NCBI RefSeq assembly: GCF_034479515.1
Contig: NZ_CP140152.1
Location: forward strand, 5,022,001-5,086,000
Reading direction: 5' to 3'
Source: Duganella zoogloeoides
GTDB taxonomy: Bacteria > Pseudomonadota > Gammaproteobacteria > Burkholderiales > Burkholderiaceae_D
DNA length: 64,000 nt
Shown: positions 32,777 through 56,544 of the stretch, one piece after another
How the letters are laid out: each line of letters opens with the position of its first letter
Numbering within the stretch: the stretch's first letter is position 1
Position numbers and translations under genes: made by a program
The notes under the pieces: model-generated
What the model was told of the DNA's origin: nothing
Databases searched by the model: none
Seen by the model: the letters and a program-made list of their open reading frames with translations, nothing else

Positions 32777-32812
32777 ATACGGGGGTTCAAGCCGACTGGA
32801 TCACCCCCGTAT
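32777..32812. terminator. Perfect 10-bp inverted repeat between the 3' ends of hemL and the ABC ATPase
   Basis: ATACGGGGGT / ACCCCCGTAT with a 16-base loop. It covers the stop codon of the ABC ATPase (minus) and begins 18 bases after the hemL stop. The stem could block both converging transcripts; no U-run follows on either strand, so it is a candidate rather than a canonical intrinsic terminator. Confidence 0.42.
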
Positions 32813-34085: not shown

Positions 34086-34094
34086 GGTGCGCTC

Positions 34095-35825
34095 CTAGAA
34101 ATGCAGCCGGCTCTCGGCCATGATGTACAGGCGGCGCCAGACGAAGTGATTAAAACCCATCACGAAGATGCACATCACGCCGATGCCGAGCGCAATGCGC
34201 GGAAAATCGCCGGTGGCGGTCATCTCGGCAATGTAGCTGCCCAGGCCATGGGCCTTGACCGTGGTGGCGCCCCAGCTCACGTATTCGGCCACGATGCTGG
34301 CGTTCCACGAGCCGCCCGACGCGGTGATCGCACCGGTGACGAAACTGGGAAAAATCGCCGGCAGCAGGTAGCGCCGCCATTTAAGCCAGCCCGTCAACCC
34401 GAAATTCTGCGCCGCGTGGCGCAACTCGGTCGGTATGGTGGACGCGCCGGCGATCACGTTGAACAGCAAATACCACTGGGTGCCGAGGATCATCAGCGGC
34501 GACAGCCAGATGTCCGGGTTCAGCTGGTAGCGCATGATGACGATCACCGCCACCGGGAACACCAGGTTAGCGGGGAACGCGGCCAGGAACTGCGCCACCG
34601 CCTGGGTGCGCGACGCCCAGCGCGGGTTCATGCCGATCCACACGCCCACCGGCACCCAGATCAGCGCGGCCAGCACCAGCAAACCGATCACGCGCAGCAT
34701 GGTGTAGCAGCCCAGCAGCAGCACGTGTCCCACTTCGCGCCAGCCCACCTCGGTGCTGATGAAGTGGCCGAGTGTCCACAAGGCGTAAAACACCACGGCG
34801 ACGATCACCGCGTCCCACACGCGCTGGGGCACCAGCGACGGATGATCGCGGCGGGCGCGGATCGAGGTGCCGTCGTGGCCGAGACGGAACAGCGCGATGG
34901 AGCGCGACAGCAGCCGGCCGCACCACGCTACGAATTCCTGGGTGCGGTCGGTGCGGCGCAGCCAGGTGAGCAGCCACGAGTTTTGCGCGGTGTCGCCGCC
35001 GGTTTCCTCGAACCGGAACTTGTCGGCCCAGGCCAGCAACGGACGGAAAAACAGCTGGTCGTACAGCAGCACGGCGATCAGCATGGCAAAGATGGCCCAG
35101 CCGATGGCGCCCAGGTTGCTCTGCTCGATGGCCAGCGCGATGTACGAGCCGATGCCGGGCAACTTGATGTCCTGGTTCGAGACCGAGATCGCCTCCGACG
35201 CCACCACGAAAAACCAGCCGCCCGACATCGACATCATCATGTTCCACAACAGGCCCGGCATGGCGAACGGCAGTTCCAGGCGCCAGAAGCGCTGCCAGCC
35301 CGACAGCTGGAACACCTGGGCCGCCTCCGACAGTTCGGCCGGCACGTTGCGAAAGCCCTGGTAGGCCGAGAACGCCATATTCCACGCCTGCGACGTGAAG
35401 ATGGCAAAGATGGCCGCGCATTCCACGCCCAGCAGGTTGCCGGGAAACAGCGCGATGAAGGCGGTCACCGTGATCGACAAAAAGCCGAGGATCGGGATCG
35501 ACTGCAGGATGTCGAGCAGCGGCACCAGCACTTTTTCGGCGAGCCGGTACTTGGTGGTAAGCGCGGCAAACACGCAGGCGAACACCACCGACGCACCGAG
35601 CGCGATAAACATGCGCAAGGTGGTGCGCAGCAGGTAATACGGCAGGTTGGTCGGGTCGAGCGAGAGCGGCAGCGCCTGGCCCAATTGGTAAGGGCGCGCC
35701 ATCTGCTGGCCGCCATAGGCCAGCAGCACGAACAAGGCCAGCACGATGGGCAGCAGCGCCCAGTCCCAGCGGTTGCCGCCGGCTTCCACTACCTGCCGGG
35801 GGAAAAATTGCCGTTTCTTGTACAT
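34095..35825 (-). CDS. Fused ABC transporter permease with two transmembrane domains
   Basis: 576 residues with two binding-protein-dependent transport (BPD) permease domains in one chain, in the halves about 60-280 and 360-570. This matches permeases that pair with AAA-associated ATPases. The EAA-like loops are AEAGREVGHVL-type rather than classical; the clearest repeat is the LRHAAQNFGLTGW and AELSEAAQVFQLSGW pair, one in each half. The start ATG has GGGAG about 9 bases upstream. It is cotranscribed with the ATPase. Divergent from the HTH-GAF gene across a 289-base gap. Confidence 0.9.
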   Translation of the reverse strand: MYKKRQFFPRQVVEAGGNRWDWALLPIVLALFVLLAYGGQQMARPYQLGQALPLSLDPTNLPYYLLRTTLRMFIALGASVVFACVFAALTTKYRLAEKVLVPLLDILQSIPILGFLSITVTAFIALFPGNLLGVECAAIFAIFTSQAWNMAFSAYQGFRNVPAELSEAAQVFQLSGWQRFWRLELPFAMPGLLWNMMMSMSGGWFFVVASEAISVSNQDIKLPGIGSYIALAIEQSNLGAIGWAIFAMLIAVLLYDQLFFRPLLAWADKFRFEETGGDTAQNSWLLTWLRRTDRTQEFVAWCGRLLSRSIALFRLGHDGTSIRARRDHPSLVPQRVWDAVIVAVVFYALWTLGHFISTEVGWREVGHVLLLGCYTMLRVIGLLVLAALIWVPVGVWIGMNPRWASRTQAVAQFLAAFPANLVFPVAVIVIMRYQLNPDIWLSPLMILGTQWYLLFNVIAGASTIPTELRHAAQNFGLTGWLKWRRYLLPAIFPSFVTGAITASGGSWNASIVAEYVSWGATTVKAHGLGSYIAEMTATGDFPRIALGIGVMCIFVMGFNHFVWRRLYIMAESRLHF

Positions 35826-41335: not shown

Positions 41336-42223
41336 TTATTTTGCTCCGCCGAGCATGTCGGCTTCCAGTTTATCGTCGCGGGTGAATCTGAAGGTGGTGA
41401 CGATGACCCACAGGTCGTCGCGGTCGCTCGAGCGCATATTGGCCGGGAACTTGCCGAACGGCGCGGCGCGCCGGACGATATCGATTGCCGCCTGGTCCAG
41501 CGCCGGGTTCTTCGAGCTGGTGGTCACTTCGATCCCGCCTTCCTTGTCATAGATGGTGCCATCCTGAAATACGGGAATCGACAGCACCAGCTGGCCGTAC
41601 AGCTTGCGGCCGTTTTTTTGCGGGAAATTCAGCGTACCGACGTCCTCGATGCGCTTTTGCAGGGTCTTGTAATACATGGCGTAGCCCACGCCCCGGGTGC
41701 TGGGACTCAGGAACGTCTTGCGCGGGCGCTTGTTCTGGTCTTCGATGGTTTCGCTGATTTCGGCGGCGCGGCGGGCAATCGCCTTGCTCGATTCGAGCAG
41801 GTCCGAGCCGCTGGCCAGCGGATCGGGCTTGGTGTCTTCGGTCACCTTCGGTACCGCAAACGGGTCCTTGCGCCTGACCTGGTTGAGCAGGTTGCGCTGC
41901 TGCTCTTCCAGCGCGGCAATGCGGCGCTGGGTGGCGACGATGCTGTCGCCGGTTTCCATCTTGCGCATGTCGGGCAGCGGCGACTTGGACCGGCCCTTGT
42001 CCACCGTGCCGCCGCCATCGAGATTGGCCTGCGCCAGCGCCTCGGCCTTGAGCGGCGGGTTCTTGTGCTTGGCGTTGACCAGGATGACTTCCAGGCCCGG
42101 ATCGGTGGGTTTGACCGGGGTGGGCGGCGGCGCAACAAAGCGCAGGGCCAGCAACGCGGCATGCGCCAGCAGCGACACCGCGATCGCGATGGCCAGGAAA
42201 CGATTGTGTTGTATGAACTTCAC
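41336..42223 (-). CDS. TonB-like energy transducer
   Basis: 295 residues. A short cytoplasmic N terminus, one signal-anchor helix ([21 protein letters not shown]) and a Pro-rich, charged periplasmic span lead to a C-terminal TonB-type domain ([15 protein letters not shown], then [19 protein letters not shown]). I used the GTG at 42223 because it starts directly before the anchor; the frame is open to a GTG at 42310. No exbB/exbD is nearby. It would couple to outer-membrane transport or envelope function. The ~105 bases upstream (42224-42328) should hold its promoter, unless it is read through from the secretion operon. Confidence 0.86.
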
Positions 42224-42328
42224 GCGGGCAGCAGGTCCATGACGTCGGGAAATGCTGAATTTTACGTGAAAGCAGCGCCGTACCGCCCAGTTTTTGTGGG
42301 CGCCATGCACACCCGCGCCAAATTCCCC

Positions 42329-44464
42329 TTAAAAGCCCGCTTCGCGCCACATCAACGCCGCCACGCCGCGCAGCAGGCGGGTACCGGGCGCCTCCCAGTC
42401 GGCGGCAATCACGACCTTGCCGCGCCAGTTGCGCCCGGCCAGCGCGCCAGCTGGATCGGTGACCTTGAAGGTGACCCGGTACACGGCTTTTTCCGGGAAC
42501 CAGTGGCCCTGCTTTTCATGCGCCGTCACCGAGCCGCCGTGCTGGGCCGACCACATGCCGCTCGGCAGCATGTGGGTGGCGTCCTGGTCGATGCCGCTCA
42601 CTTGCAGCCGCACGAACGGCCCTTCGAGGCCGTCCGGGTAAAAGCGCGCGCTGTCGCCCACGGCCACGCGGCGCACCGTGTCTTCGTCGAGGTAAGTGCT
42701 TGCTTCCTCGCCCTGATCGCCCACCAGCACCGCCACCCGTTCGTTCTTGCCCACCCACACGCCAGGCGCCAGCGCACCGTCGATATCGCGCAGGGTGCCG
42801 GCGAACGGCGCCACCGGGCGGTAGCGCGCGGCTTCTTCTTCCAGCAGCGCCAGCTTGGCCTCGGCGCTGGCCAGCTGTTCGCGCAGCACCATGCTCTGGG
42901 CACGCTGCTCGGCGTCGAAACCGGCGCCTTCGGTGCGCCAGCGCAGGCTCTCGATCTGCGCGGCCAGCCCCTGGCGCTGGCTGGCGTTTTCCGCCACGGC
43001 AAATTGCAGCATGACGTCGCCGGCGCGCACCCTGGCGCCCTCGCCCAGCGGCAGGGCGGACAGCATGGCGTGTTCCGGTGCATGGATGGGAAACACCTGC
43101 GCCGGCCGCAACACGCCCGTGGCCTGCACCCGCGTGGGCCACGGCACCACGAACAGCAGCATGGCCAGCGCGGCCAGCACCAGCGTGCGCCGCGTGCGGC
43201 GGCGGTGCCGCACCTGCGGCCACAGGCTGCGCCAGGCGCGCAGTTCGGTGGCCAGGGGGCGCAAGATAAACCAGCTCATTTCAATCGCGAACAAGAAAAT
43301 TCCCACCAGTTTGATAAAAAAGTGATACACCAGCACCGCGATACCGAGGAACAGCATCAGCCGGTACACCCACACGCCCCACGCAAACAGGATCAGGCCC
43401 CAGTGCCGGCGCGGCGGAAAATATTCGGGCGGCGGCGCGCCTGCGTCGAACAGCCGTTCGCGCAGGTTCCAGCGCGCCAGCGCAAACGCGCGCGCATGCA
43501 GATTCGGCATGTCGAGCCAGTCGGAGACGACAAAATAGCCGTCGAAGCGCATGAACGGACTGGCGTTGATGGCCAGCGTGGCGATCCAGGTGGTGGTCGC
43601 CAGCGGGAACACGATCGAGCGCAGCACGCCGTCCGGCAGCACGGCCCACGCCAGCGACGACCAGATGGCGATGATTAACTCGGTCGCCACGCCGGCCGCC
43701 GCCACCTGCTGGCGGTGGTGCTTGTTGTTCAGGCGCCAGACGTCGTTGGTGTCGGTGTACGGGACCGGCCACAGCACCAGGAATGCCAGCCCCATGGTGG
43801 GCACGCGGCAGCCGCGCCGCTTGGCCGTGATGGCATGCCCGAGTTCGTGCGCGCACTTGACGCCGGCCAGCGCCAGCCCGTAGCAGGCAATGCCGGCAGG
43901 CGTAAACGTATCCATCAACATGCTGCCCAGGCGGCCCCACTCGCGGTAGATCTGGATGCTGCTGATGATCAGCGCCAACAAGGTCAGGCGGGCGAAGGTG
44001 GTTGAAAACAGCCATTCGAACGACGGCGCCACGCGCGTGAGCCAGCGGTCGGGCTTGACCAGCGGGATGCGGAAAAACAGGTAGCCGTGCAGCAGTTGCG
44101 TGTACCAGGCGCCCTGCTGCGCCTTATGGCGTGCGGCCATGGTTTTCACGGATGCGAGCGGATCGGGCTGCAGCAGCTGGTTCTGGTCGAGGAAGCCGAG
44201 CACCGATTCGATCTCGCCGTAGCCGATATCGAGCGGCGTGCCGTGTTCGATATCGCGCAGGACCTGCTGCGGGCTGCCCAGCGTCCAGCGCCGCAGCACC
44301 TCGAAGGTCAGCCAGTCGATGCGGAAGAACTGGTTGCGTACCGGGTCTTCCAGGGTGTAGCTGGGTTCTCCCGTGTCCAGCGCCGGGCCGGCATGCAGGC
44401 TCAGTTCTTCGCGCAGCGGCGGCAGGCGCAGGTGCTCGAACTGCTGCGGCAGCAAACCGTCCAA
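42329..44464 (-). CDS. M50 (site-2 protease-like) membrane metalloprotease fused to an HlyD-like adaptor domain
   Basis: 711 residues. The N terminus (about 15-105) looks like a PqqD-type/winged-helix module. The middle is a polytopic membrane domain with the zinc motif HELGH (His206, Glu207, His210) and the third ligand Asp308 in NASPFMRFDGYF, so the S2P/M50 active site is complete. The C-terminal part (about 450-700), after two further hydrophobic segments, is an HlyD/biotin-lipoyl-like periplasmic region with a coiled-coil hairpin (about 495-555). It lies 3 bases after the upstream adaptor stop; the start is a TTG. It is the last gene of the giant-protein operon. I infer a role in processing or exporting that protein. 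Confidence 0.86.
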   Translation of the reverse strand: MDGLLPQQFEHLRLPPLREELSLHAGPALDTGEPSYTLEDPVRNQFFRIDWLTFEVLRRWTLGSPQQVLRDIEHGTPLDIGYGEIESVLGFLDQNQLLQPDPLASVKTMAARHKAQQGAWYTQLLHGYLFFRIPLVKPDRWLTRVAPSFEWLFSTTFARLTLLALIISSIQIYREWGRLGSMLMDTFTPAGIACYGLALAGVKCAHELGHAITAKRRGCRVPTMGLAFLVLWPVPYTDTNDVWRLNNKHHRQQVAAAGVATELIIAIWSSLAWAVLPDGVLRSIVFPLATTTWIATLAINASPFMRFDGYFVVSDWLDMPNLHARAFALARWNLRERLFDAGAPPPEYFPPRRHWGLILFAWGVWVYRLMLFLGIAVLVYHFFIKLVGIFLFAIEMSWFILRPLATELRAWRSLWPQVRHRRRTRRTLVLAALAMLLFVVPWPTRVQATGVLRPAQVFPIHAPEHAMLSALPLGEGARVRAGDVMLQFAVAENASQRQGLAAQIESLRWRTEGAGFDAEQRAQSMVLREQLASAEAKLALLEEEAARYRPVAPFAGTLRDIDGALAPGVWVGKNERVAVLVGDQGEEASTYLDEDTVRRVAVGDSARFYPDGLEGPFVRLQVSGIDQDATHMLPSGMWSAQHGGSVTAHEKQGHWFPEKAVYRVTFKVTDPAGALAGRNWRGKVVIAADWEAPGTRLLRGVAALMWREAGF

Positions 44465-44467
44465 GGC

Positions 44468-45835
44468 TTACAGTCCCGCCACCTGGCGCATGGCGGCCAG
44501 CGGCCGGCGCATGATCCAGTACGCCGCCGGCACCCAGCGGCCGGTCAGCTTGACCGTGCCCTTGAGGCCCACCCGGTGCGTGGTGGCGCCGTCGAGCGTG
44601 GCGCGGACGCGGTAGGCGTAGCTGCCGTCGGGACGCGGCTGCGCTTCGTACGAGACGTAGCGCACCCGCGCCGTCACCGGCTGCAGCGGGCTGGCGCCCA
44701 GGTACAGGCTGGTGTCGGCGCCCTCCTCCAGCGGGATGGCATCGCCCACGCCGAGCCATGCTTCCACCTCGACGTCGCCGGGCGTGGCGATGCGCATGAT
44801 GCGTTCGCCGGTCATGACGGGCCGGCCGACCCATTCGCTGGGATCGTCGAACAGGGCGATGCCGTCGCGCGGGGCGACGATGCGCGCGCGTTCGGCCTGG
44901 CCATGCAAAAATTCGCTTTCCGCGCGGCGCTCTTCGATCTTGCCTTGCAGCGAAGACAGCAATGCTTTCGACCGGTTGTCGGTCAGCGCCTGTTGCAGCG
45001 ACTGGCGGTATTCCGCTTCAGCCGTGGCCAGCGCCTGGCTGGCCACCTGGTAGCGGCTTTCGAGCTGGGCCTGGTCGAAGTCCAGCAGCGGCTGGCCCTG
45101 CTTCACCAACTGGTTGGGTTTGACGTGGAAGCGCTCGATCACGCCTTCGAGCGGCGAGCGGATGGCAGCCGGGTTGGCCGGCACCAGTTCGCCGGGCGCC
45201 AGGATGGTCAGCCGCACGGGCAGGCATAACACCGCCGCCACGCCCAGCGCAATCTGCACCTTGCGCCGCCGCCACCAGGGCAAGGCCGCGCTCTGTTCCT
45301 GCGCCATGCGCTGGCGCCAGCGCGACTTCAGCGCGAACGGCGACCACGGCGCCGGCTTTGTCACTGCCGCATACGCATGGCGCAGCACATCGCACCATTC
45401 GGTCAGCAGCGCGATGTCGTGCGCCTGCCACGGCGTGTCGCGCGCCAGCAGCAAGCCGCCGCGCGGCGCCTGCAACAGGCCGTCGGTGGCCGGCAGCGGC
45501 AACCACAGCGCATAGGCCGGTAGCCACTCGGTCCATTGCGCCGCCACGTCGCCGTCAAAATCGGCGGCGGTCAACGCGCCGGCCGGCGCCGCCTTGCACA
45601 GGCGCTCCAGCCACTGCACATAGGGCGCGTTCGCTTCGATCTGCACCACGCCCGACAGCGCGCACACCTTGCGGTCCTCGAACCACAGCGCGGCCTGGCG
45701 ATACGGCGCCAGCGCATGGCTGCCGTTCACCGCCAGGAAATCGAGTTCGACCCGCGCGCCGACATGGCGCGCGCGGTGTGCCATGTCGAGCAGTGTGGCC
45801 AGCGGATCGGGACCGCCTTGTTGCGTATCTTCCAT
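44468..45835 (-). CDS. HlyD-family adaptor with an N-terminal GAF-like domain
   Basis: 455 residues. Residues about 10-155 resemble a GAF domain (LLLARDTPWQAHDIALLTEW near its end) and precede the only transmembrane helix (about 193-212), so this part should be cytoplasmic. The periplasmic half is an HlyD/RND-type membrane-fusion protein with a biotinyl-lipoyl hairpin (PLEGVIERFHVKPNQLVKQGQ) and a long coiled coil. The ATG at 45835 starts one base after the giant gene stop. A frame 9 codons longer overlaps that gene. It is cotranscribed with the giant protein and the M50-HlyD protein. No ABC ATPase accompanies it. Confidence 0.85.
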   Translation of the reverse strand: MEDTQQGGPDPLATLLDMAHRARHVGARVELDFLAVNGSHALAPYRQAALWFEDRKVCALSGVVQIEANAPYVQWLERLCKAAPAGALTAADFDGDVAAQWTEWLPAYALWLPLPATDGLLQAPRGGLLLARDTPWQAHDIALLTEWCDVLRHAYAAVTKPAPWSPFALKSRWRQRMAQEQSAALPWWRRRKVQIALGVAAVLCLPVRLTILAPGELVPANPAAIRSPLEGVIERFHVKPNQLVKQGQPLLDFDQAQLESRYQVASQALATAEAEYRQSLQQALTDNRSKALLSSLQGKIEERRAESEFLHGQAERARIVAPRDGIALFDDPSEWVGRPVMTGERIMRIATPGDVEVEAWLGVGDAIPLEEGADTSLYLGASPLQPVTARVRYVSYEAQPRPDGSYAYRVRATLDGATTHRVGLKGTVKLTGRWVPAAYWIMRRPLAAMRQVAGL

Positions 45836-45836
45836 C

Positions 45837-48800
45837 TTATGCCCGGACGCGGTACGCGGCATTCACCGCGCTCACCTGGCGCAATTGCTCGCTCAGACCG
45901 CTCTTCCCCATCGCGGTTTTCGCCTGGCCCACGTTGATGCGGAACAGCGCGGTCGCTTCGTGGCCGTTGATGTCGCGCGCGATCAGCTTGACGCGCACTT
46001 CGCCCACCAGGCCTTTCGGCACTTCGCCGGTGAATTTGCCGGTCTGCGCGTCGAACTGCATCCACGCTGGCAGCGGACGTCCGTCCTGCAAGGTGGCGGC
46101 CAGGCGCACCACGGCGTCGGACTTGGTGTGCACAAAGGCGTCGCTCGGGATGGTCACCGTCATCGCGCGGCCGTTTTCGGTGTACTGGTCGGGCACGCCC
46201 TGGAACAGCATCAGCGCCGGGTTTTCCGCCGTGGCAACCACGGTGCGGAAGCCGTTGTTGTCGGTGTACAGATCGCTCATTTCGGCGCTGCGGCGATACT
46301 CGCCCGACAGCTCGGTGGCGCGTGTGCCCTGGCCATCGAGCTGTGGCGCCTCGCTGCCTGCCAGGTTCGACGGCGCGTCTGCATTGATGCGGGTATCGAC
46401 AATCTCCGGGCTCGGCACGAAGGTCGGCAGCGGCGGCAAGGCAGCCACTGGCAATGGCGCAGGTACCGGCGGCGCTTCCACCACGACCGGCGCCGGCACG
46501 GCCACCGGTTCCGGCGCGAGCACCGGCTGCGGCGGCAATGGCAGCACGGTGAAGTTGACGGCGACACTGCTCGACGCCGTGCCATCGCTGGCGCGCACCA
46601 CCACCGTGTAGCTGCCGGCTGCGTCGGTCGCTGGCGTGCCGCTGAAGGTACGGGTGGCAGGATCGAACACCAGCCAGGCCGGCAAGGCGTCGCCATTGGC
46701 CAGGGTGGCCGTGTAGTTCAGCGACGCGTTGTCGATATCGGTAAAGGCAGGCACCGTCAGCGTCGGCATGGCCACGCCGGCGGACAGGTCAACCGGCGCC
46801 GGCACGCTGCCAGGTGCTACCGGCGCATCGTTGACCGGATTGACCGTGATGTTGACGGTATAGGTGGTGCTGCCGCCGTTGCCGTCGCTGACCGTGTAGG
46901 TAAAGCTGTCAGCTCCATTGAAGTTGGCCGCCGGCGTGTAGATGTAGGTGCCGTTGGCATTGACGACCAGCGTGCCATGGGCCGGGTCGCTCGCCTTGCC
47001 ATACGTCGCGGTATCGCCATCGACGTCAACCACTGCCGGCAGAGCGCCGGACAGGACCTGGTCTTCGTTGACTGTGACCGTGGAATCGGCGGCGGTCGGG
47101 GCGTCGTTGACCGGACTGATGTTGATCGCCACGGTGTAGGTATTGCTGCCGCCCTGGCCGTCGCTGACGGTGTAGGTGAAGCTGTCGGCGCCGTTGTAGT
47201 TGGCCGCTGGCGTGTAGAGATAAGTGCCGTCGGGGTTGACGACGACCGTGCCATGGGCAGGGTCGCTGCCCTTGCCGTAGGTGAGCGTGTCGCCATCGAC
47301 GTCGGTCGCCACTGGCAAGGTAGCGGTTTTGACGGTGTCTTCGCTGGTGGTAATCGTCGTGCCGCTGCCGACCGGGGCGTCGTTGACCGGGCTCACCGTG
47401 ATCGCGACCGTGTAGGTGTTCGAACCGCCCTGGCCATCGCTGACCGTGTACGTAAAGCTGTCGGCGCCGTTGTAGTTGGCCGCTGGCGTGTAGAGATAAG
47501 TGCCGTCGGGGTTGACGACGACCATGCCATGGGCAGGGTCGCTGCCCTTGCCATAGGTGAGCGTATCGCCATCGACGTCGGTCGCCACTGGCAAGGTACC
47601 GGTTTTGACGGTGTCTTCGCTGGTGGTAATCGTCGTGCCGCTGCCGACCGGGGCGTCGTTGACCGGGCTGATGGTGATTGCCACCGTGTAGGTGTTGCTG
47701 CCTCCGTGGCCGTCGCTGACGGTGTAGCTGAAGCTGTCGGCGCCGTTGTAGTTGGCCGCTGGCGTGTAGAGATAAGTGCCGTCGGGGTTCACGACGACCG
47801 TGCCGTGGGCAGGGTCGCTGCCCTTGCCGTAAGTGAGCGTGTCGCCATCGACGTCGGTCGCCACTGGCAAGGTACCGGTTTTGACGGTGTCTTCGCTGGT
47901 GGTAATCGTCGTGCCGCTGCCGACCGGGGCGTCGTTGACCGGACTGACGGTGATCGCCACGGTGTAGGTATTGCTGCCGCCGTGGCCATCGCTGACGGTG
48001 TAGGTAAAGCTGTCGGCGCCGTTGTAGTTGGCCGCTGGCGTGTACGTGTAAGTGCCGTCGGCGTTGACCACCACCACGCCGTGTGCTGGGTCGGTCGCTT
48101 TCGTGTAGGTCACGCTATCGCCGTCGATGTCGGTTGCCACTGGCAGCGTGCCGGTTTTGACCGTATCTTCGTTCAGCGAGATGCTGTCGTTACCTGCCAC
48201 CGGTGCGTCGTTGACCGGGCTAACCGTGATTGCTACCGTGTAGGTATTCGAACCGCCATTTCCGTCGCTGACGGTGTAGGTGAAGCTGTCGGCGCCGTTG
48301 TAGTTGGCCGCTGGCGTGTACGTGTAAGTACCGTCGGCGTTGACCACCACCACGCCATGCGCCGGGTCGGTCGCCTTCGTGTAAGTCACCGTATCGCCGT
48401 CGATATCGCTCGCCACCGGCAGGGTACCGGTCTTGACGGTGTCTTCGCTGGTGGTAATCGTCGTGCCGCTGCCGACCGGGGCGTCGTTGACCGGGCTGAT
48501 GGTGATCGTCACGGTGTAAGTATTGCTGCCGCCCTGGCCGTCGTTGACGGTGTAGGTGAAGCTGTCGGCGCCGTTGTAGTTGGCCGCTGGCGTGTAGAGA
48601 TAAGTGCCGTCGGGGTTGACGACGACCGTGCCGTGGGCAGGGTCGCTGCCCTTGCCGTAAGTGAGCGTGTCGCCATCGACGTCGGTCGCCACTGGCAAGG
48701 TACCGGTTTTGACGGTGTCTTCGCTGGTGGTAATCGTCGTGCCGCTGCCGACCGGTGCGTCGTTGACCGGGCTCACCGTGATCGCGACCGTGTAGGTGTT

Positions 48801-51800
48801 CGAACCGCCCTGGCCATCGCTGACCGTGTACGTAAAGCTGTCGGCGCCGTTGTAGTTGGCCGCTGGCGTGTAGAGATAAGTGCCGTCGGGGTTGACGACG
48901 ACCGTGCCGTGGCCAGGGTCGCTGCCCTTGCCGTAGGTGAGCGTGTCGCCATCGACGTCGGTCGCCACTGGCAAGGTACCGGTTTTGACGGTGTCTTCGC
49001 TGGTGGTAATCGTCGTGCCGCTGCCGACCGGGGCGTCGTTGACCGGGCTGATGGTGATCGCGACCGTGTAGGTGTTCGAACCGCCTTGGCCATCGCTGAC
49101 CGTGTACGTAAAGCTGTCGGCGCCGTTATAGTTGGCGACTGGCGTATAGGTATAGGTGCCGTCGGCGTTGACCACCACCACGCCATGCGCCGGGTCGGTC
49201 GCCCTCGTGTAGGTGACGGTATCGCCATCGATATCGCTTGCCACTGGCAGTGTGCCGGTTTTGACCGTATCTTCGTTCAGCGTGATGCTGTCGTTTCCTG
49301 CCACCGGTGCGTCGTTGACCGGGCTCACCGTGATTGCCACCGTGTAGGTATTCGAACCGCCATTTCCGTCGCTGACGGTGTAGGTGAAGCTGTCGGCGCC
49401 GTTGTAGTTGGCCGCTGGCGTGTACGTGTAAGTACCGTCGGCGTTGACCACCACCACGCCATGCGCCGGGTCGGTCGCCTTCGTGTAAGTCACCGTATCG
49501 CCGTCGATATCGCTCGCCACCGGCAGGGTACCGGTCTTGACGGTGTCTTCGCTGGTGGTGATCGACGTGCCGCTGCCCACCGGTGCGTCGTTCACCGGGC
49601 TGACGGTGATGGTAACCGTGTAGGTGTTGCTGCCGCCGTTGCCATCGCTGACGGTATAGGTAAAGCTGTCGGCGCCATTGTAGTTGGCGGCCGGCGTATA
49701 GGTGTAGGTGCCGTCAGCGTTGACCACCACCGTGCCATGGGCCGGGTCACTGCCCTTGCCGTAGGTGATGGTGTCGCCATCGATGTCGGTGGCCGCCGGC
49801 AGGCTGCCGGTCTTGACCGTATCTTCGGCGGTGGTAATGGCCGTGCCTGAAGCAGTTGGCGCATCGTTGACCGGCGTGACATTGACCGACACCGTGTACG
49901 TGTTCGACGCACCCTGGCTGTCCGTGACTTTATAGGTAAAGCTGTCGGCGCCGTTGTAGTTGGCGGCCGGCAGGTAGATGTAGCTGCCATTCGGATTGAT
50001 GACGACAGTGCCGTGCGAGGCATCGGTCACGCGGGCATAAGTAACGGCACCGCCGTCCACATCCGTGGCGGCCGGCAGGTTGCCGGACTTGATGGTATCT
50101 TCCGCCGTCGTGATGCTGTCGTTGCCCGCTACCGGCGCATCGTTGACCGGGCTGACGGTAATGGCCACCGTGTAGGTGTTGCTGCCGCCATTGCCATCGC
50201 TGACGGTATAGGTAAAGCTGTCGGCGCCATTGTAGTTGGCGGCCGGCGTAAAGGTGTAGGTGCCGTCGGCATTGACCACCACCGTGCCATGGGCCGGATC
50301 GCTGCCCTTGCCGTAGGTGACGGTATCGCCGTCGACATCGGTCGCGGTTGGCAGGGTGCCGGTCTTGACCGTGTCTTCATTTGTCGTGATCGCCGTGCCG
50401 GAGGCCACCGGCTTGTCGTTGACCGGCGTGACGTTGACCGACACCGTATAGGTGTTCGACGCGCCATGGCTGTCCGTTACCTTGTACGTGAAGCTGTCGC
50501 TGCCGTTGTAGTTCGCTGCCGGGATATACAGATAGCTGCCGTCGTCGTTGACGACTACACGGCCATGCGCGGGCGCCGTGCCCGTGCTGTAGATGAAGGT
50601 GTCGCCTTCCAGGTCGGTGGCGGCCGGCAAGGTGCCCGACTTGATGGTGTCTTCCGCCGTGGTGATGCTGTCGTTGCCCGCTACCGGCGCATCGTTGACC
50701 GGGCTGACGGTAATGGCCACCGTGTAGGTGTTGCTGCCGCCGTTGCCATCGCTGACGGTATAGGTAAAGCTGTCGGCGCCATTGTAGTTGGCGGCCGGCG
50801 TATAGGTGTAGGTGCCGTCAGCGTTGACCACCACCGTGCCATGGGCCGGGTCACTGCCCTTGCCGTAGGTGATGGTGTCGCCATCGATGTCGGTGGCCGC
50901 CGGCAGGCTGCCGGTCTTGACCGTATCTTCGGCGGTGGTAATGGCCGTGCCTGAAGCAGTCGGCGCATCGTTGACCGGCGTGACATTGACCAACACCGTG
51001 TACGTGTTCGACGCACCCTGGCTGTCCGTGACTTTATAGGTAAAGCTGTCGGCGCCGTTGTAGTTGGCGGCCGGCAGGTAGATGTAGCTGCCATTCGGAT
51101 TGATGACGACAGTGCCGTGCGAGGCATCAGTCACGCGGGCATAAGTAACGGCATCGCCGTCCACATCCGTGGCGGCCGGCAGGTTGCCGGACTTGATGGT
51201 GTCTTCCGCCGTCGTGATGCTGTCGTTGCCCGCTACCGGCGCATCGTTGACCGGGCTGACGGTAATGGCCACCGTGTAGGTGTTGCTGCCGCCATTGCCA
51301 TCGCTAACGGTATAGGTAAAGCTGTCGGCGCCATTGTAGTTGGCGGCCGGCGTATAGGTGTAGGTGCCGTCGGCATTGACCACCACCGTGCCATGGGCCG
51401 GATCGCTGCCCTTGCCGTAGGTGACGGTATCGCCGTCGACATCGGTCGCGGTTGGCAGGGTGCCGGTCTTGACCGTGTCTTCATTTGTCGTGATCGCCGT
51501 GCCGGAGGCCACCGGCTTGTCGTTGACCGGCGTGACGTTGACCGACACCGTATAGGTGTTCGACGCGCCATGGCTGTCCGTTACCTTGTACGTGAAGCTG
51601 TCGCTGCCGTTGTAGTTCGCTGCCGGGATATACAGATAGCTGCCGTCGTCGTTGACGACTACACGGCCATGCGCGGGCGCCGTGCCCGTGCTGTAGATGA
51701 AGGTGTCGCCTTCCAGGTCGGTGGCGGCCGGCAAGGTGCCCGACTTGATGGTGTCTTCCGCCGTGGTGATGCTGTCGTTGCCCGCTACCGGCGCATCGTT

Positions 51801-54173
51801 GACCGGGCTGACGGTAATGGCCACCGTGTAGGTGTTGCTGCCGCCGTTGCCATCGCTGACGGTATAGGTAAAGCTGTCGGCGCCATTGTAGTTGGCGGCC
51901 GCCGTATAGGTGTAGGTGCCGTCAGCATTGACCACCACCGTGCCATGGGCCGGGTCACTGGCCTTGCCGTAGGTGATGGTGTCGCCATCGATGTCGGTGG
52001 CCGCCGGCAGGCTGCCGGACTTGACCGTATCTTCGGCGGTGGTAATGGCCGTGCCGGATGCCGTTGGCGCATCGTTGACCGGTGTGACATTGACCGTCAC
52101 GGTGTACGTATTCGAGGCGCCCTTGCTGTCGGTGACGGTGTAATTGAAGCTGTCGGCGCCGTTGTAGTTGGCGGCCGGCGTGTAGATGTAGGTGCCGCCG
52201 GCGCTGACCGTCAGGGTGCCATGGGCAGGATTGGTGGCCTTGGCATAGGTAAAGGTATCACCATCGAGGTCGGTACCCGCCGGCAGGCTGCCGGTCATGG
52301 GCAGGTCTTCGCTGGTGGTGATGGTGGTGTCCGATGCCGTCGGCGCGCGGTTGGCAGGGTCCGCAAAATCGACCACGATATCGGCACGCGCCGCGCCCGT
52401 GACGGCGCTGGCCAGCACGCCGCTGAACGCCCCATTGCCGAAGCTGACGCCAAAGTTGCTGATGTCATTCGCATTGGCGTGCGCGCTGGCATTGCCGGTG
52501 AAGGTCAGGGTGGCGGTGGTGGCGCTGGTGCGGGTGATCTCGGCCGTCAGGCCCGCCGGGGTATTGCTGAAAGTAACGCCGGACAGCGCCGCGCCATTGC
52601 TGCCGCTGAAAGTGCCGTTGGCCAGCGTGATGGTCGCGCTCATCGTGATCGAGCCATCGTTGGCGGTCGCTTCGGTGAAATTGGTGGTGCTGTACGTCAG
52701 GCGCGCGGCCGGAGAGTCGACGATGGTCGTCGCACTGCCCCATGCCGGCCCCACGCTGAAATCGAGCGCAAAATAGGCAGTCCCGTTCAGCGTACCGCTC
52801 CCTGCAGTATTGACACCCGACTTGATCTGGAACGAACTCATCGAATCGTAGTACACCTTGACGCGGTATTCGTCCTGGGCAATCGGCCCATTATTCACGC
52901 CAGTTGCCGACACATACTGGAACGTCACCGAGCCGTCGGCCTGGGTCGTGGGCACCAGCTTGGTATTGTTCGACAATTCGTAGCGGGAGAAACCTTTGAA
53001 CTGCTGATACTGGCGGTCGGTGTTGCTGGAGCCTACGCCGTCGATATCATACGAATTGACGGCCACGTTTTGCAGCGTGACGGCGGTGCCGGTACCCACG
53101 CCGGTATAGGTGCCGGCCTTGTAGAAGTCGACGGTGAAGGTAGCGCCGCCACCCGAGGCGGATACCACCATGTTCGGCTGGAAGTATGCACTGGTACTCG
53201 ACGGATTGCTGGTTGAATCATAGTTGCTGATGGTGGCGCGGTCCAGCGTGGTGGTCACCACCGCGTCGATGGCCCGGCCATTGATGGTGATCACGCTGTT
53301 AAAGCGCACCACGTTGCCGTTCGATTTGCCGTCGCCGATGATGTTGGTAAAGCCGGTGCCGGTACCATTGAACACCAGCTGCTGCCAGTTGGCGTTATAC
53401 ACGGTATCGACCGCCAGTTCGCCCTGCCAGCCCGCGCGGTCCAGTACCAGCGCGGCCGTCTCGATGCCGCCATGCTGCGCTTCCAGGGTCCAGTTGCCGG
53501 CAAACGCCTGCGAGCCGGTGATGTCGGTCGAGGCGGCCACGTCGGCCTGGGTCAGTTGCGCCAGGCGATCGACGAACGCCAGGCCGGCCGCGCCATCGGC
53601 CACATCGCAGCCATAAATCAGCAAGTCGCCACCGGCCGTGAGCGACTGGCCCAGTTGCGTCAGCTGGTCGCGGTATTGCTCGATATTGGCGCCCGAAATC
53701 GTGCTGCCGAGCTCGATCTGACCAGCCGAGCCGTGCGTGACCAGGTGGATCGCATCGACCGGCGCATGGCCTTGCAAGGCCGCCAGCATTTGCTGCAAGC
53801 CGTCGCGGGTATGGTCCAGCACCACCACTTCGACGCCATCGCGCACACCGGCCACCAGTTGCTGCAAATTGGTCACGTTATCTTCGATAAAGACGATTTC
53901 ATGACGGGTTTGCTCGGTCGGGCCCGCCACCGCCGCCGGCGCCTTGACTGCGGCAGCGGCCTTTTCGGCGGCAGCGCGTTCGGCCGCCGCGTTGTCGGCT
54001 GCGGCGTGCTCGGCCGATGCCCTGGCACTCACGGCGGTATCGACCGCCGCACCGTCAAACATGATGCGCTGTTCTAGCACCAGTGGCGCCGGGCCGCGAC
54101 GCTGGAGTGCGCGGCGGGCGGTGGCGACTGGAGGGAGGGAAGCTTCAATGACGGTGCGGTCCGTTTTTTTCAT
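45837..54173 (-). CDS. Giant DUF4347/cadherin-like tandem-repeat protein, probable surface protein (2778 aa)
   Basis: No Sec-type hydrophobic signal is visible. An LEPR-like motif LEQRIMFDGAA lies at residues 33-43, then an Ala/Glu-rich linker, a DUF4347 domain (about 91-250; HLVTHGSAG with His147, IYGCDVADG with Cys189), an Ig-like region to 607, and exactly 20 cadherin-like repeats of 92 residues (608-2447). The C terminus has an Ig-type domain, a Pro-rich spacer and a second Ig-like domain ending near residue 2755. No RTX nonapeptide GGxGxD repeats or LPXTG anchor occur. It is flanked within one operon by a TolC-like protein and two HlyD-like adaptors. The function is inferred as a surface or secreted adhesion-type protein. 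Confidence 0.9.
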   Translation of the reverse strand: MKKTDRTVIEASLPPVATARRALQRRGPAPLVLEQRIMFDGAAVDTAVSARASAEHAAADNAAAERAAAEKAAAAVKAPAAVAGPTEQTRHEIVFIEDNVTNLQQLVAGVRDGVEVVVLDHTRDGLQQMLAALQGHAPVDAIHLVTHGSAGQIELGSTISGANIEQYRDQLTQLGQSLTAGGDLLIYGCDVADGAAGLAFVDRLAQLTQADVAASTDITGSQAFAGNWTLEAQHGGIETAALVLDRAGWQGELAVDTVYNANWQQLVFNGTGTGFTNIIGDGKSNGNVVRFNSVITINGRAIDAVVTTTLDRATISNYDSTSNPSSTSAYFQPNMVVSASGGGATFTVDFYKAGTYTGVGTGTAVTLQNVAVNSYDIDGVGSSNTDRQYQQFKGFSRYELSNNTKLVPTTQADGSVTFQYVSATGVNNGPIAQDEYRVKVYYDSMSSFQIKSGVNTAGSGTLNGTAYFALDFSVGPAWGSATTIVDSPAARLTYSTTNFTEATANDGSITMSATITLANGTFSGSNGAALSGVTFSNTPAGLTAEITRTSATTATLTFTGNASAHANANDISNFGVSFGNGAFSGVLASAVTGAARADIVVDFADPANRAPTASDTTITTSEDLPMTGSLPAGTDLDGDTFTYAKATNPAHGTLTVSAGGTYIYTPAANYNGADSFNYTVTDSKGASNTYTVTVNVTPVNDAPTASGTAITTAEDTVKSGSLPAATDIDGDTITYGKASDPAHGTVVVNADGTYTYTAAANYNGADSFTYTVSDGNGGSNTYTVAITVSPVNDAPVAGNDSITTAEDTIKSGTLPAATDLEGDTFIYSTGTAPAHGRVVVNDDGSYLYIPAANYNGSDSFTYKVTDSHGASNTYTVSVNVTPVNDKPVASGTAITTNEDTVKTGTLPTATDVDGDTVTYGKGSDPAHGTVVVNADGTYTYTPAANYNGADSFTYTVSDGNGGSNTYTVAITVSPVNDAPVAGNDSITTAEDTIKSGNLPAATDVDGDAVTYARVTDASHGTVVINPNGSYIYLPAANYNGADSFTYKVTDSQGASNTYTVLVNVTPVNDAPTASGTAITTAEDTVKTGSLPAATDIDGDTITYGKGSDPAHGTVVVNADGTYTYTPAANYNGADSFTYTVSDGNGGSNTYTVAITVSPVNDAPVAGNDSITTAEDTIKSGTLPAATDLEGDTFIYSTGTAPAHGRVVVNDDGSYLYIPAANYNGSDSFTYKVTDSHGASNTYTVSVNVTPVNDKPVASGTAITTNEDTVKTGTLPTATDVDGDTVTYGKGSDPAHGTVVVNADGTYTFTPAANYNGADSFTYTVSDGNGGSNTYTVAITVSPVNDAPVAGNDSITTAEDTIKSGNLPAATDVDGGAVTYARVTDASHGTVVINPNGSYIYLPAANYNGADSFTYKVTDSQGASNTYTVSVNVTPVNDAPTASGTAITTAEDTVKTGSLPAATDIDGDTITYGKGSDPAHGTVVVNADGTYTYTPAANYNGADSFTYTVSDGNGGSNTYTVTITVSPVNDAPVGSGTSITTSEDTVKTGTLPVASDIDGDTVTYTKATDPAHGVVVVNADGTYTYTPAANYNGADSFTYTVSDGNGGSNTYTVAITVSPVNDAPVAGNDSITLNEDTVKTGTLPVASDIDGDTVTYTRATDPAHGVVVVNADGTYTYTPVANYNGADSFTYTVSDGQGGSNTYTVAITISPVNDAPVGSGTTITTSEDTVKTGTLPVATDVDGDTLTYGKGSDPGHGTVVVNPDGTYLYTPAANYNGADSFTYTVSDGQGGSNTYTVAITVSPVNDAPVGSGTTITTSEDTVKTGTLPVATDVDGDTLTYGKGSDPAHGTVVVNPDGTYLYTPAANYNGADSFTYTVNDGQGGSNTYTVTITISPVNDAPVGSGTTITTSEDTVKTGTLPVASDIDGDTVTYTKATDPAHGVVVVNADGTYTYTPAANYNGADSFTYTVSDGNGGSNTYTVAITVSPVNDAPVAGNDSISLNEDTVKTGTLPVATDIDGDSVTYTKATDPAHGVVVVNADGTYTYTPAANYNGADSFTYTVSDGHGGSNTYTVAITVSPVNDAPVGSGTTITTSEDTVKTGTLPVATDVDGDTLTYGKGSDPAHGTVVVNPDGTYLYTPAANYNGADSFSYTVSDGHGGSNTYTVAITISPVNDAPVGSGTTITTSEDTVKTGTLPVATDVDGDTLTYGKGSDPAHGMVVVNPDGTYLYTPAANYNGADSFTYTVSDGQGGSNTYTVAITVSPVNDAPVGSGTTITTSEDTVKTATLPVATDVDGDTLTYGKGSDPAHGTVVVNPDGTYLYTPAANYNGADSFTYTVSDGQGGSNTYTVAINISPVNDAPTAADSTVTVNEDQVLSGALPAVVDVDGDTATYGKASDPAHGTLVVNANGTYIYTPAANFNGADSFTYTVSDGNGGSTTYTVNITVNPVNDAPVAPGSVPAPVDLSAGVAMPTLTVPAFTDIDNASLNYTATLANGDALPAWLVFDPATRTFSGTPATDAAGSYTVVVRASDGTASSSVAVNFTVLPLPPQPVLAPEPVAVPAPVVVEAPPVPAPLPVAALPPLPTFVPSPEIVDTRINADAPSNLAGSEAPQLDGQGTRATELSGEYRRSAEMSDLYTDNNGFRTVVATAENPALMLFQGVPDQYTENGRAMTVTIPSDAFVHTKSDAVVRLAATLQDGRPLPAWMQFDAQTGKFTGEVPKGLVGEVRVKLIARDINGHEATALFRINVGQAKTAMGKSGLSEQLRQVSAVNAAYRVRA
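47385..49592 (-). repeat. Second 1104-bp duplication, units 11-14 and 15-18
   Basis: Units 11-14 (48489-49592) and 15-18 (47385-48488) are another pair of four-unit blocks. Bases from 48241 match those from 49345 (offset 1104) over at least 200 bases. Units 13, 14, 17, 18 and 19 are all close variants of one class. Confidence 0.85.
49593..50696 (-). repeat. 1104-bp higher-order repeat copy, units 7-10
   Basis: Units 7-10 repeat units 3-6 (50697-51800) with only about four residue changes in 368. The two copies are directly adjacent and nearly identical at DNA level, e.g. bases 49681-49740 match 50785-50844. This is a recent tandem duplication of a four-unit block. Confidence 0.9.
50697..51800 (-). 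repeat. 1104-bp higher-order repeat copy, units 3-6
   Basis: Partner of the copy at 49593-50696. Unit 2 (51801-52076) is in turn the same class as units 6 and 10, so the four-unit period extends one unit further. Confidence 0.9.
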
Positions 54174-54208
54174 GGCGTACTTTTATCGGTAAGTTTTTTT
54201 TCGGTAAT

Positions 54209-55030
54209 TTATTTGCCGGCGGGAGGCGTCAGGGCTACTCGTCCGCTCATGCCTGCGATCAATTCGGGGAAGCGTCCATCGATGGCGGCCGACAGCTTGA
54301 CCGACTGGCTGACCGGATCGACACGGGCGCCGATGCGCTGCACCTTGGCCGGATAGGTCTTGCCGGTTTCATCGATCGCCACCTGGAAGGCGTAGCCGGG
54401 CTTGAGCCAGGCCAGCCAGCGCGAGGGCACGATGAATTCCAGTTCCAGCGAAGAATCATCGATGATTTCCAGTAGCGCCTGGCCCGGCTGCACATATTGC
54501 TGCTCGCGCACCTTCTGCTCGGTCACGCGGCCGGAAAATGGCGCTTGCAAGCTGCATTTGCCGATCACTGCCGCGCCATAGGCCAGTTCCGCGCGGGCCT
54601 TGGCCACCTCGGATTCCGACACTTCCAGCTCCACCTTGCCGATCGAGCGCAGCTCTTCCAGGCGCTTGTTGGCGTTGAAGGTATGTTCGGCCGCCGACAG
54701 CATGGCCTTGGCTTTTTCTCGCTGGGCCTGCTGCATCGAGCAGTCGAGCGCGACCAGGGTCTGGCCGGCGCGGAAACTGCCGCCTTCGGTCACCGCGATG
54801 CGGCTGATCTTGGCGCCCACTTCAGCGGCGATGGTGGTGTAGCGGCGCGGCGCCAGCTGGGCGCGCACTTCCTGGCGCTCCACGGCCGCACGCGGTGCTG
54901 CGGCGGCTGGCGCAACCGGACGCGGTGCTGCGGCGGCCGGCACCGGCGCCGCAGCCGGCGCGGCCCACGCCGGCGCGGCCAGCGCAGCAGCCAGCACCAG
55001 GCCGGTCAGACCAAGAGGACGCACCATCAT
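54209..55030 (-). CDS. Periplasmic adaptor subunit (HlyD/RND membrane-fusion family)
   Basis: 273 residues. A Sec signal peptide (LGLTGLVLAAALAAPAWA) is followed by an Ala/Pro-rich linker. The adaptor body starts IAAEVGAKISRIAVTEGGSF, with a biotinyl-lipoyl domain, a short coiled-coil hairpin, and LQAPFSGRVTEQKV. The soluble periplasmic form contrasts with the membrane-anchored adaptor downstream of the giant gene. The ATG at 55030 shares a base with the upstream stop (TGATG); a GTG at 55033 is also possible. The giant gene begins 35 bases downstream. It is the second gene in the operon. Confidence 0.88.
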   Translation of the reverse strand: MMVRPLGLTGLVLAAALAAPAWAAPAAAPVPAAAAPRPVAPAAAAPRAAVERQEVRAQLAPRRYTTIAAEVGAKISRIAVTEGGSFRAGQTLVALDCSMQQAQREKAKAMLSAAEHTFNANKRLEELRSIGKVELEVSESEVAKARAELAYGAAVIGKCSLQAPFSGRVTEQKVREQQYVQPGQALLEIIDDSSLELEFIVPSRWLAWLKPGYAFQVAIDETGKTYPAKVQRIGARVDPVSQSVKLSAAIDGRFPELIAGMSGRVALTPPAGK

Positions 55031-56544
55031 CACTTGGCCACCGCCGGCGCCTGCACGCCCTGGCTCCAGCCAGCCATGGACGCGCCGACTTCACTGGTTA
55101 ACTGTTCCAGCGACATATCGGTCACGCTGCCCAGCACCGGTTCCAGGCCCAGCGTGGCTTGCACCTTGCTGGCCGAGGCTTGCAGTTGCGCCAGCGACTG
55201 GTAGCGGCGCAGCAGGCTCAAAATGGCGGTGGTGCTGTTGGCAACCTGCTCCAGCTTGCTCTGGGTCTGGGCCTTGCCGCGATTCTTGACATGCGCGTCG
55301 ATCTTGGCATCGGCTTGCCAGATTTCATCGGCGCGCAGATATTGCTTGTAAGCGATCTGGTATTGCAGGCGCGACAAGTGCACTTGTGCCAGCACGGTCA
55401 TTTGCGCCGTGATGCGGCGCTGGTCCGCCAGTTTCACACCCGCTTCGGCCAGGCGCTTTTGTGCCGGCCCCGAGAACAGGTTGAACAGGTTGTACGACAG
55501 GTGAACGCCGGCATCGTTCCAGCGGTTGTTGATCATGTAGCGGTCGCTGTCGTAACGCAGGTCGTAGTTGAAGGACAGGTTCGGGAACAGGCGCAGCATC
55601 ACGCGGCGCGTCTCTTCGGTAGCGATGCGGGCGTTGTAGAACTGCTCGCGGATGTCGGCGTTCTGGGTTACCGCCAGCTCTTCCATGCGCTCGACCGGCA
55701 TGTCCAGCATGGTCACGTCCACCTTGTCACCGGGGTCGCGCACTTCCAGCACCTGGCCCAGCGGGGCGTTGATCAGGTGCGCCAGCTCGACGCGGCCCGA
55801 CGACAGTTCCTGCTCGATGCTTTCCAGCAGGCGCAGGTTTTCCAGCAACTGGCGCTGGTAGCGCAGCGAATCGACGGGCGAACGCAGGCGTTCCGATTCC
55901 GCCTTGCGCGCATCCTTCAACGCGGCTTCGGCCAGCACGATGGTTTCCTGGACTTCCACGCGCAGCTTTTGCGCGCTGGCAGTGCGCCAGAACGCCGTGC
56001 GCACGTCCTGGATCAGCGTATGCATGGCCTTGCGGCGACGCTCGGCAGCGATATTGACGCGGTCGGCGCTTTGCCTGGCGGTGATGTAGCTCATGCCGAA
56101 GTCGAGCGCGTTCCAGGTCAGGCCCAGGTCGTATGCCGCATGGTTGCGCTCGGAGGAAATATACGGATTGGCCAGCGATGGCTTGCCCGTCACCGAATCC
56201 ACACTGCGCGTAATCAGCTCTTCATTGCGGGTGGTGTAGCCGGCATTGGCCATCAGGCGCGGCAGCATGTCCCAGCTGGCATTGTCGAACTGGTTCATCG
56301 CCAGCGCTTCTTCCATCAAGCGCGTGCGGCGCTCGAGGTTGTACTTCAACGCCCGTGCAATCGCCTCATCCATCGACAACGCGCCCGACACCGGCGGCAC
56401 GTTGTCCATCGCCGTCTGGCGATCGAGGGTGGTTTGCGCTGCCAGGTCAGCGCTGGACAACGGTTGTACCTGGACGGTGCCGCACGCCGTCAGCATGACG
56501 GCGGCGCACGCCGCGACAGCGCGGGCGATGATTTTTTTTTGCAT
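55030..56544 (-). CDS. TolC-family outer-membrane lipoprotein
   Basis: 504 residues. A lipoprotein signal with lipobox LTAC is at about residues 18-21. The rest is the two-fold repeated helical-barrel pattern of TolC/outer-membrane factor proteins (ALKYNLERR, then DVRTAFWRTASAQK, ARIATEETRRVML and YQIAYKQYL). It should form the outer-membrane channel of the export machine. First gene of the five-gene operon; the start ATG lacks a good Shine-Dalgarno site. A candidate promoter is at 56622-56627. Confidence 0.9.
   Translation of the reverse strand: MQKKIIARAVAACAAVMLTACGTVQVQPLSSADLAAQTTLDRQTAMDNVPPVSGALSMDEAIARALKYNLERRTRLMEEALAMNQFDNASWDMLPRLMANAGYTTRNEELITRSVDSVTGKPSLANPYISSERNHAAYDLGLTWNALDFGMSYITARQSADRVNIAAERRRKAMHTLIQDVRTAFWRTASAQKLRVEVQETIVLAEAALKDARKAESERLRSPVDSLRYQRQLLENLRLLESIEQELSSGRVELAHLINAPLGQVLEVRDPGDKVDVTMLDMPVERMEELAVTQNADIREQFYNARIATEETRRVMLRLFPNLSFNYDLRYDSDRYMINNRWNDAGVHLSYNLFNLFSGPAQKRLAEAGVKLADQRRITAQMTVLAQVHLSRLQYQIAYKQYLRADEIWQADAKIDAHVKNRGKAQTQSKLEQVANSTTAILSLLRRYQSLAQLQASASKVQATLGLEPVLGSVTDMSLEQLTSEVGASMAGWSQGVQAPAVAK

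Follow-up and report, generated by a model that had tools for sequence, protein, structure and literature searches.

How might a protein of 2778 residues that carries no Sec signal leave the cell when the operon encoding it supplies an outer-membrane channel and adaptors, and no ATP-binding cassette (ABC) exporter gene? The question is raised by five open reading frames (ORFs) in a stretch of 64,000 nucleotides from Duganella zoogloeoides (contig NZ_CP140152.1, positions 5,022,001 to 5,086,000; hereafter the window). All five lie on the minus strand at 42329-56544 and form a block of ~14.2 kb, transcribed in the order TolC-like lipoprotein, small HlyD, giant repeat protein, GAF-HlyD and M50-HlyD, with junction gaps of -1, 35, 1 and 3 bases when the likely starts are used. 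An earlier note on this DNA had called these genes a single operon; the same ORFs, strand and junctions were recovered here, and the block behaves as one cassette. We consider it very probable that the genes form a dedicated export and processing module for giants that bear an N-terminal leader, and, with less assurance, we favor a reading of the operon as a machine that uses this leader to direct the export and processing of a single giant, adhesin-like protein. Its parts are as follows.

55030..56544, minus strand: TolC-like outer-membrane channel, apparent lipoprotein (LTAC; Pfam OEP, 99.3 bits; N-terminus inspected)
54209..55030, minus strand: small HlyD/RND-type adaptor with an N-terminal signal peptide (RND_mfp, 127.5 bits, cut-off 94.9; hydrophobic N-terminus)
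45837..54173, minus strand: giant repeat protein of 2778 residues, the presumed cargo (20 Big_9/cadherin/tandem-95 stretches, DUF4347, He_PIG; no RTX-type motif)
54048..54077, minus strand: N-terminal leader motif LEQRIMFDGA, giant residues 33-42 (pattern match; LEPR-XLL model 13.5 bits, short of the cut-off of 17)
53448..53897, minus strand: DUF4347 domain, giant residues 93-242 (174.7 bits)
45876..45908, minus strand: C-terminal motif GKSGLSEQLRQ, giant residues 2756-2766 (strict pattern)
44468..45835, minus strand: GAF-HlyD adaptor (HlyD_3, 61 bits; AlphaFold model, mean pLDDT 91.1)
45350..45817, minus strand: GAF domain, GAF-HlyD residues 7-162
42329..44464, minus strand: RRE-M50-HlyD protein, here also M50-HlyD (domain matches; AlphaFold model, mean pLDDT 86.8, pTM 0.67)
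44165..44428, minus strand: PqqD/RRE-like domain, M50-HlyD residues 13-100
43511..43906, minus strand: M50 (site-2-protease-like) core, with HELGH at 43835-43849
42383..43147, minus strand: periplasmic HlyD/MFP part, M50-HlyD residues 440-694

The limits of the block can be read from relatives. When 30 loci were compared (our own and those of 29 relatives, 24 of which belong to the same genus), the RNB exoribonuclease gene was found to end less than 1 kb from a TonB-like gene in 29/29 relatives, leaving no room for a 14.2-kb block; in our genome M50-HlyD stands between RNB and TonB, and it is the sole cassette bearer at this site among the 30 loci. The block between these two genes therefore comprises the five genes, which form one discrete insertion. 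The RNB exoribonuclease, the TonB-like protein and aroE make up a conserved neighborhood (window 41336-42310 and 56853-58892). TonB was considered as an energy partner and rejected, because its gene (41336-42310, next after the cassette) lies less than 1 kb from RNB in the 29 relatives, which lack the module there, and because 40 of 41 genomes, with our own counted, contain a match to it.

A second set is present in the same genome (G000:C1:1316058-1334486), where GAF-HlyD, HlyD, TolC and a 3734-residue giant lie on one strand and M50-HlyD is divergent; the identities to the window proteins are 35% for GAF-HlyD, 37% for HlyD, 34% for TolC and 36% for M50-HlyD. This genome also encodes a third DUF4347 giant of 5186 residues at 5.87 Mb (G000:C1:5871080, L018), which opens almost directly with DUF4347, has no leader and carries RTX-type repeats near its C-terminal end, and none of the four partner genes was found in the 34 kb around it. 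The third giant is probably an ordinary type I cargo, and this contrast within one genome counts for the leader-directed reading. Genes for a GNAT acetyltransferase and for proteins with a phage tail-collar domain lie next to the second copy (L016:15818-19998) as well as to the cassette on an Azospirillum brasilense plasmid (L233:1-2729); they might be components of a larger version of the system.

Linkage of the genes is conserved far beyond this genome, which rules out the lack of linkage that the earlier note had held up as a counterargument. At the 121 loci analyzed (a count that, like the ORF counts given below for the leader and the C-terminal motif, excludes the short loci L102-L131), GAF-HlyD was found within 4 kb of M50-HlyD in 113 cases and immediately 5' of it on the same strand in 103; five of the eight misses start less than 650 bases from a cut end, one is the divergent copy of our own genome, and two remain. 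TolC and the small HlyD were located within six genes at 43 and 48 of the 121 loci, respectively, many loci being cut before that position. Clustering of the neighbors within five genes returned adaptors at 112 loci, TolC at 42 and several clusters of large repeat ORFs; no other cluster occurred at more than nine loci, and these small clusters carry no identification. The scan of species genomes covered the best 80 of 595 loci. In a sample of the phylum, scored on at most three candidates per genome, M50-HlyD matches were obtained in 228 of 299 genomes, the best E being ≤1e-150 in 73 of them, which may mean that a widespread envelope machine has so far been left without a name. The co-occurrence with DUF4347 proposed earlier as a check is borne out in this sample: DUF4347 and a strong M50-HlyD are found together in 67 genomes, the system alone in 6, DUF4347 alone in 18 and neither in 208 (p 2e-42, genome kinship ignored; in this and the later table of this kind, genomes between the thresholds were counted as negative). 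Large ORFs that carry the leader lie next to the system, now on one side and now on the other, in members of the alpha-, beta- and gammaproteobacteria. A version with the leader-bearing cargo downstream of M50-HlyD was seen at L144, L146, L150, L151 and L154, and genomes G146 and G058 carry this version beside an upstream-cargo system.

What distinguishes these giants is the start of the chain. Forty-six uncut ORFs of at least 1300 residues within six genes of M50-HlyD were picked by size and place, and 38 of them have the pattern [LMIVF]E-x-[RK]-x(1,2)-[LMFIVYA][LMFYIW][DSN][AG] in their first 200 residues, compared with 3 of 750 other ORFs of at least 250 residues. Of these three control matches, two come from truncated ORFs (L151, L157) whose beginnings lie immediately downstream of M50-HlyD; the other is an ORF with LEPRVLLSA in L055. 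The eight pattern-negative ORFs appear, from their first residues and positions, to be unrelated or opposite-strand ORFs; at L141 the cargo, with LEPRYMFDA, is on the opposite strand, and L068:11972-16150 is a 1392-residue, DUF4347-like ORF without a leader on the opposite strand near the system. Further stretches were read, mostly from loci where the cargo had seemed absent or cut, and yielded clade-1 leaders in eleven places (L141, L202-L205, L208, L210, L217, which is the L157 cargo again, L218, L219 and L220); no leader was found beside M50-HlyD in the further stretches L206, L207 and L209, nor in the clade-2 stretch L216. An alignment of 41 cargo N-termini shows no variation at L, E, R and D and very little at F and A; part of this constancy is built in, because the set was selected with the leader pattern, in which E is obligatory and the choice at the other positions is limited. 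The LEPR-XLL model (NF012209) matches 20 of the 41 at E 1 or better.

The earlier claim that the giant lacks a Sec signal agrees with the hydropathy of its N-terminus. Sec or Tat export was rejected since the first 70 residues contain no hydrophobic core, and none of the 41 cargos reaches a mean hydropathy of 2.0 in this region (one reaches 1.91). DUF4347, found in 26 of the 41 leader-bearing cargos, was likewise rejected as the export signal, because the other 15 do without it and because the same-genome DUF4347 giant with RTX repeats has neither leader nor module. DUF4347 could be an active caspase-like protease: His and Cys motifs recur in it, but the cargo of the second copy falls outside the His pattern, and a sequence search of the PDB gave weak matches only.

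At the other end of many clade-1 cargos lies a motif of the form GRxxLSEQLRxA, mostly 13-50 residues before the end. A strict form of the pattern matched 47 of the 68 cargo ORFs and 14 of the 840 ORFs used as controls; as it was derived from the cargo ORFs themselves, the former figure describes the set rather than testing the motif. The 68 ORFs include 5'-cut ORFs taken by place and size, three ORFs of clade 2 and one doubtful second ORF (L083). Several misses are near variants (LSAQLRLA, LSEQVRQA, LDEQMRMA), and the motif is absent from the three clade-2 ORFs. RTX-type motifs number zero in the window cargo; among the 69 other cargo ORFs, five have at least three, and three of these five belong to clade 2.

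The type of leader follows the clade of M50-HlyD. Leaders of the FDGA/FDAA type occur with clade 1, to which we contrast a distant sister clade (clade 2, five loci fetched, L167-L171) that occurs with leaders of the LLSA/LFSA type. The cargo leaders in clade-2 genomes are LEPRYLLSA (L211), IEPRLLLSA (L213), LEPRLLFSA (L214) and MEPRLLLSA (L227, on the same contig as L170); for L169 the LEPR match sits on another contig. Among the 299 genomes, LEPR-XLL (E ≤0.01, 50 genomes) and M50-HlyD (E ≤1e-50, 84 genomes) are found together in 48, M50-HlyD alone in 36, LEPR-XLL alone in 2 and neither in 213 (Fisher p 6e-30, genome kinship ignored). Of the two genomes with LEPR-XLL alone, G279 has its match in a 64-residue frame and G212 is 86% complete. 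Deinobacterium chartae gave the only LEPR-XLL match among 14 control genomes, and the daptide M50 model had no match there. A search for daptide-type families in the same 14 genomes is uninformative, with matches in six that do not include the LEPR-XLL-positive one.

The protein that pairs with the leader combines three domains. Its N-terminal domain has, in the predicted structure, the beta3-alpha3 winged-helix fold of PqqD and of the recognition elements (RRE) of pathways for ribosomally synthesized and post-translationally modified peptides (RiPPs). With the PqqD profile, one of five distant relatives scored above the cut-off and three more reached 16-23 bits. The Pfam M50 match is weak (26.1 bits, cut-off 27.2) and the daptide M50 protease model NF041824 gives 131.8 bits, below its cut-off of 300; HExxH and a distal Asp are both present within the membrane domain, as in M50/site-2 proteases, which upholds the complete active site claimed earlier. 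The zinc-site residues are invariant, so protease activity is probably selected. GAF-HlyD has a GAF fold. A solved structure of the system was sought and not found: sequence searches with M50-HlyD and GAF-HlyD gave only other adaptors (MacA, MexA and others) and some biotin-type domains, and a structure-database sequence search with the TolC-like protein gave zero matches. In the structure search with the whole M50-HlyD model one domain dominates the matches, and the absence of a family from them carries no meaning. The RRE-like domain, the leader and the C-terminal motif, none of which the earlier note had picked up, together define the role of M50-HlyD more narrowly, as probable recognition and, again probably, cleavage of the leader.

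Copies on mobile elements show the same association. A plasmid search returned 75 records with an M50-HlyD match. The set is present on Azospirillum brasilense p2, where the leader LEPRFMFDA belongs to a DUF4347 ORF that shortly precedes the giant one; on Magnetospirillum pMSR-1, TolC, two adaptors and M50-HlyD follow an ORF of 492 residues that lacks a leader in its annotated form and has the C-terminal end GKPTFQEELRMA. An E. coli plasmid (NZ_CP146666.1, 123597-143348; L235) carries the five-gene cassette between IS5-like and IS1-like transposase genes, with a cargo of 4460 residues that has LESRQLFDGAA at residue 18 and four partners 33-35% identical to those of the window, HELGH included; no ABC gene is annotated in the 25 kb viewed, for which the gene table is incomplete. 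A near-identical M50-HlyD gene occurs in 24 of 5426 complete E. coli genomes, and 21 of its 25 places are plasmid-borne.

From these computed features we infer binding, cleavage and secretion of the giant, and with them its location, the source of energy and independence of an ATPase, along the following lines. The giant would be made without a Sec signal, and its leader (a basic stretch, then LEQRIMFDGA) would be bound in the cytosol by the PqqD/RRE-like domain and presented to the intramembrane site of the M50 domain, with a probable cut at or just after FDGA. It is likely that the RRE and M50 domains act on the leader. The HlyD part of M50-HlyD, GAF-HlyD and the small HlyD could then form a periplasmic conduit to the TolC-like lipoprotein, M50-HlyD perhaps serving, as the earlier note proposed, as the inner-membrane component in lieu of the ABC exporter of type I systems. 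The C-terminal LSEQLR motif may be a second, perhaps late-acting, signal for export or release, the GAF domain may gate assembly through a cytosolic ligand, and folding of the cadherin-like repeats outside the cell could provide the pull on the chain. There is a precedent for an M50 protein in the place of an exporter: a review describes the M50 protease EpeP as presumed both to cleave and to export EpeX, while noting that production continued when EpeP was deleted (PMC10885120).

Several observations weigh against leader-directed export. Known site-2 proteases cut transmembrane segments; we know of no M50 protein in which a translocation pore has been shown, and no energy source for export was identified. 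Pfam PqqD has no match in five clade-1 N-terminal domains, and no leader-bearing large ORF was seen in the fetched stretches of G057, G018 and G045 (clade 1) and G297 (clade 2). Links to type I secretion also exist: three clade-2 cargo pieces hold 18-21 RTX-like motifs, and RTX and serralysin domains are described for a LEPR-XLL giant in the literature (PMC10868602). An ABC ORF lies within five genes at 7 of the 121 loci (L034, L040, L045, L048, L063, L090, L161; profile built from eight exporters of our own genome), and is exporter-sized at three of them (995 residues at L045; 654 at L090, after an adaptor-like ORF; 709 at L048, directly after M50-HlyD). A LapB-type exporter (TIGR03375) scores above the cut-off in 10 of 22 system-bearing genomes, and our own genome has a PrtD-type exporter at 759 bits, above the cut-off, together with an HlyB-like one at 636 bits, below the cut-off of 726. 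An ABC protein acting in trans is thus possible, and the type I rival stays alive in this species.

That rival is a split type I system, in which the ABC exporter powering translocation has its gene at another site and the operon contributes the adaptors, the channel and an M50 processing enzyme; the TolC, the HlyD-type adaptors and the C-terminal motif all resemble type I secretion. We nevertheless hold it to be unlikely, though it is the strongest of the alternatives. The absence of a linked ABC exporter asserted in the earlier note stands up, none being encoded in the operon and no ABC ORF lying within five genes at 114 of the 121 loci. Its wider expectation, that no exporter elsewhere is at work, fared unevenly: the two exporters of our own genome, one above and one below its cut-off, make the involvement of an ABC exporter possible in this species, whereas three other system-bearing genomes, rated 100% complete, speak for it. 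In G298, G023 and G213 the best scores are 300, 294 and 311 bits for TIGR03375 (cut-off 693), 223, 223 and 232 bits for TIGR01842 (cut-off 510) and 347, 347 and 373 bits for TIGR01846 (cut-off 726), all below these strict cut-offs, which an unusual ABC protein could escape. G298 carries all five genes, its cargo having the leader LEQRFVFDG (L132). We regard the chances that no ABC exporter takes part as evenly balanced. Nor was a linked energized pump of the RND, ABC or MFS type seen in the operon, and no unlabeled cluster except the large repeat ORFs occurs at more than nine of the 121 loci, the small clusters being unassigned to families. The ABC ATPase with AAA_assoc_C that is encoded elsewhere in the window (32787-35825) has a binding-protein-dependent permease as its neighbor; the two are of the importer type and have no connection with the operon.

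A reading without inner-membrane transport, in which RRE-M50 removes the leader while TolC and the adaptors keep the giant at the surface or carry a peptide signal, so that the module processes, anchors or controls the giant, would fit the strong conservation of the leader and of the complete protease, the regulation suggested by GAF, and the use of M50 enzymes as maturation proteases for RiPPs (PMC10885120). It leaves the export of a Sec-less giant in G298 and G023 unexplained, and three adaptor-type proteins with a TolC point to a conduit; we think it improbable. The small HlyD is a member of the RND_mfp family, as would suit adaptors and a TolC that export a small molecule or peptide past a giant that is an unrelated neighbor. 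This we consider very improbable, given that leader-bearing large ORFs recur with the system in three proteobacterial classes and on the E. coli plasmid, and that beyond adaptors, TolC and large repeat ORFs no neighbor family recurs comparably. The most specific form of leader-directed export is a separate secretion class, in which RRE-M50-HlyD is the receptor and inner-membrane gate that reads the LExR...FDGA or LLSA leader in the manner of RiPP pathways and the giants exit through GAF-HlyD, HlyD and TolC with no ATPase; we rank it above each of these alternatives and hold it to be a serious possibility that falls somewhat short of probable. If it is true, leader recognition of the RiPP type would be tied to the secretion of some of the largest bacterial proteins, the LEPR-XLL domain would gain a partner, the cassette being its missing machinery, and it could be put to the test whether giant proteins can leave through a tripartite conduit that has no ATPase of its own.

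No description of the cassette was found in the literature searched, which excluded preprints and most subscription papers, and its place is best seen by comparison with known systems. RTX or BIg adhesins leave the cell by type I secretion through systems such as HlyBD-TolC, LapBCE and SiiCDF. The cassette shares with these a TolC-like channel, HlyD-type adaptors, a giant, repetitive, Sec-less cargo and a conserved C-terminal motif, but differs in having no linked ABC exporter, a conserved N-terminal leader, an RRE-M50 protein and a GAF adaptor, and its clade-1 cargos, unlike RTX cargos, are mostly without RTX repeats. With no linked ABC exporter and no RTX repeats in the window cargo, it is by the features tested not a type I secretion system, though its outer half resembles one. 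With the M50 proteases of RiPP pathways (EpeP, TglG and the daptide protease MpaP, NF041824) it shares a membrane protease of this family and the logic of a leader peptide; unlike them, the window protein is fused to HlyD and an RRE-like domain, has a giant cargo and stands beside TolC and further adaptors. It also differs from the PqqD/RRE-guided protease of lasso peptides (B1 with its protease), since the protease is of a different class, membrane-bound, and has a giant cargo. The cassette is not a RiPP pathway, given this cargo, though it has a receptor and a protease of that kind. To LEPR-XLL proteins (NF012209) the giant is linked by the N-terminal position and LExR core of its leader, and the sister clade carries cargo of the LEPR-xLLSA type, whereas the window leader itself scores below the curated cut-off. 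We place the cassette among tripartite envelope export systems, as a variant with a real chance of being a new class.

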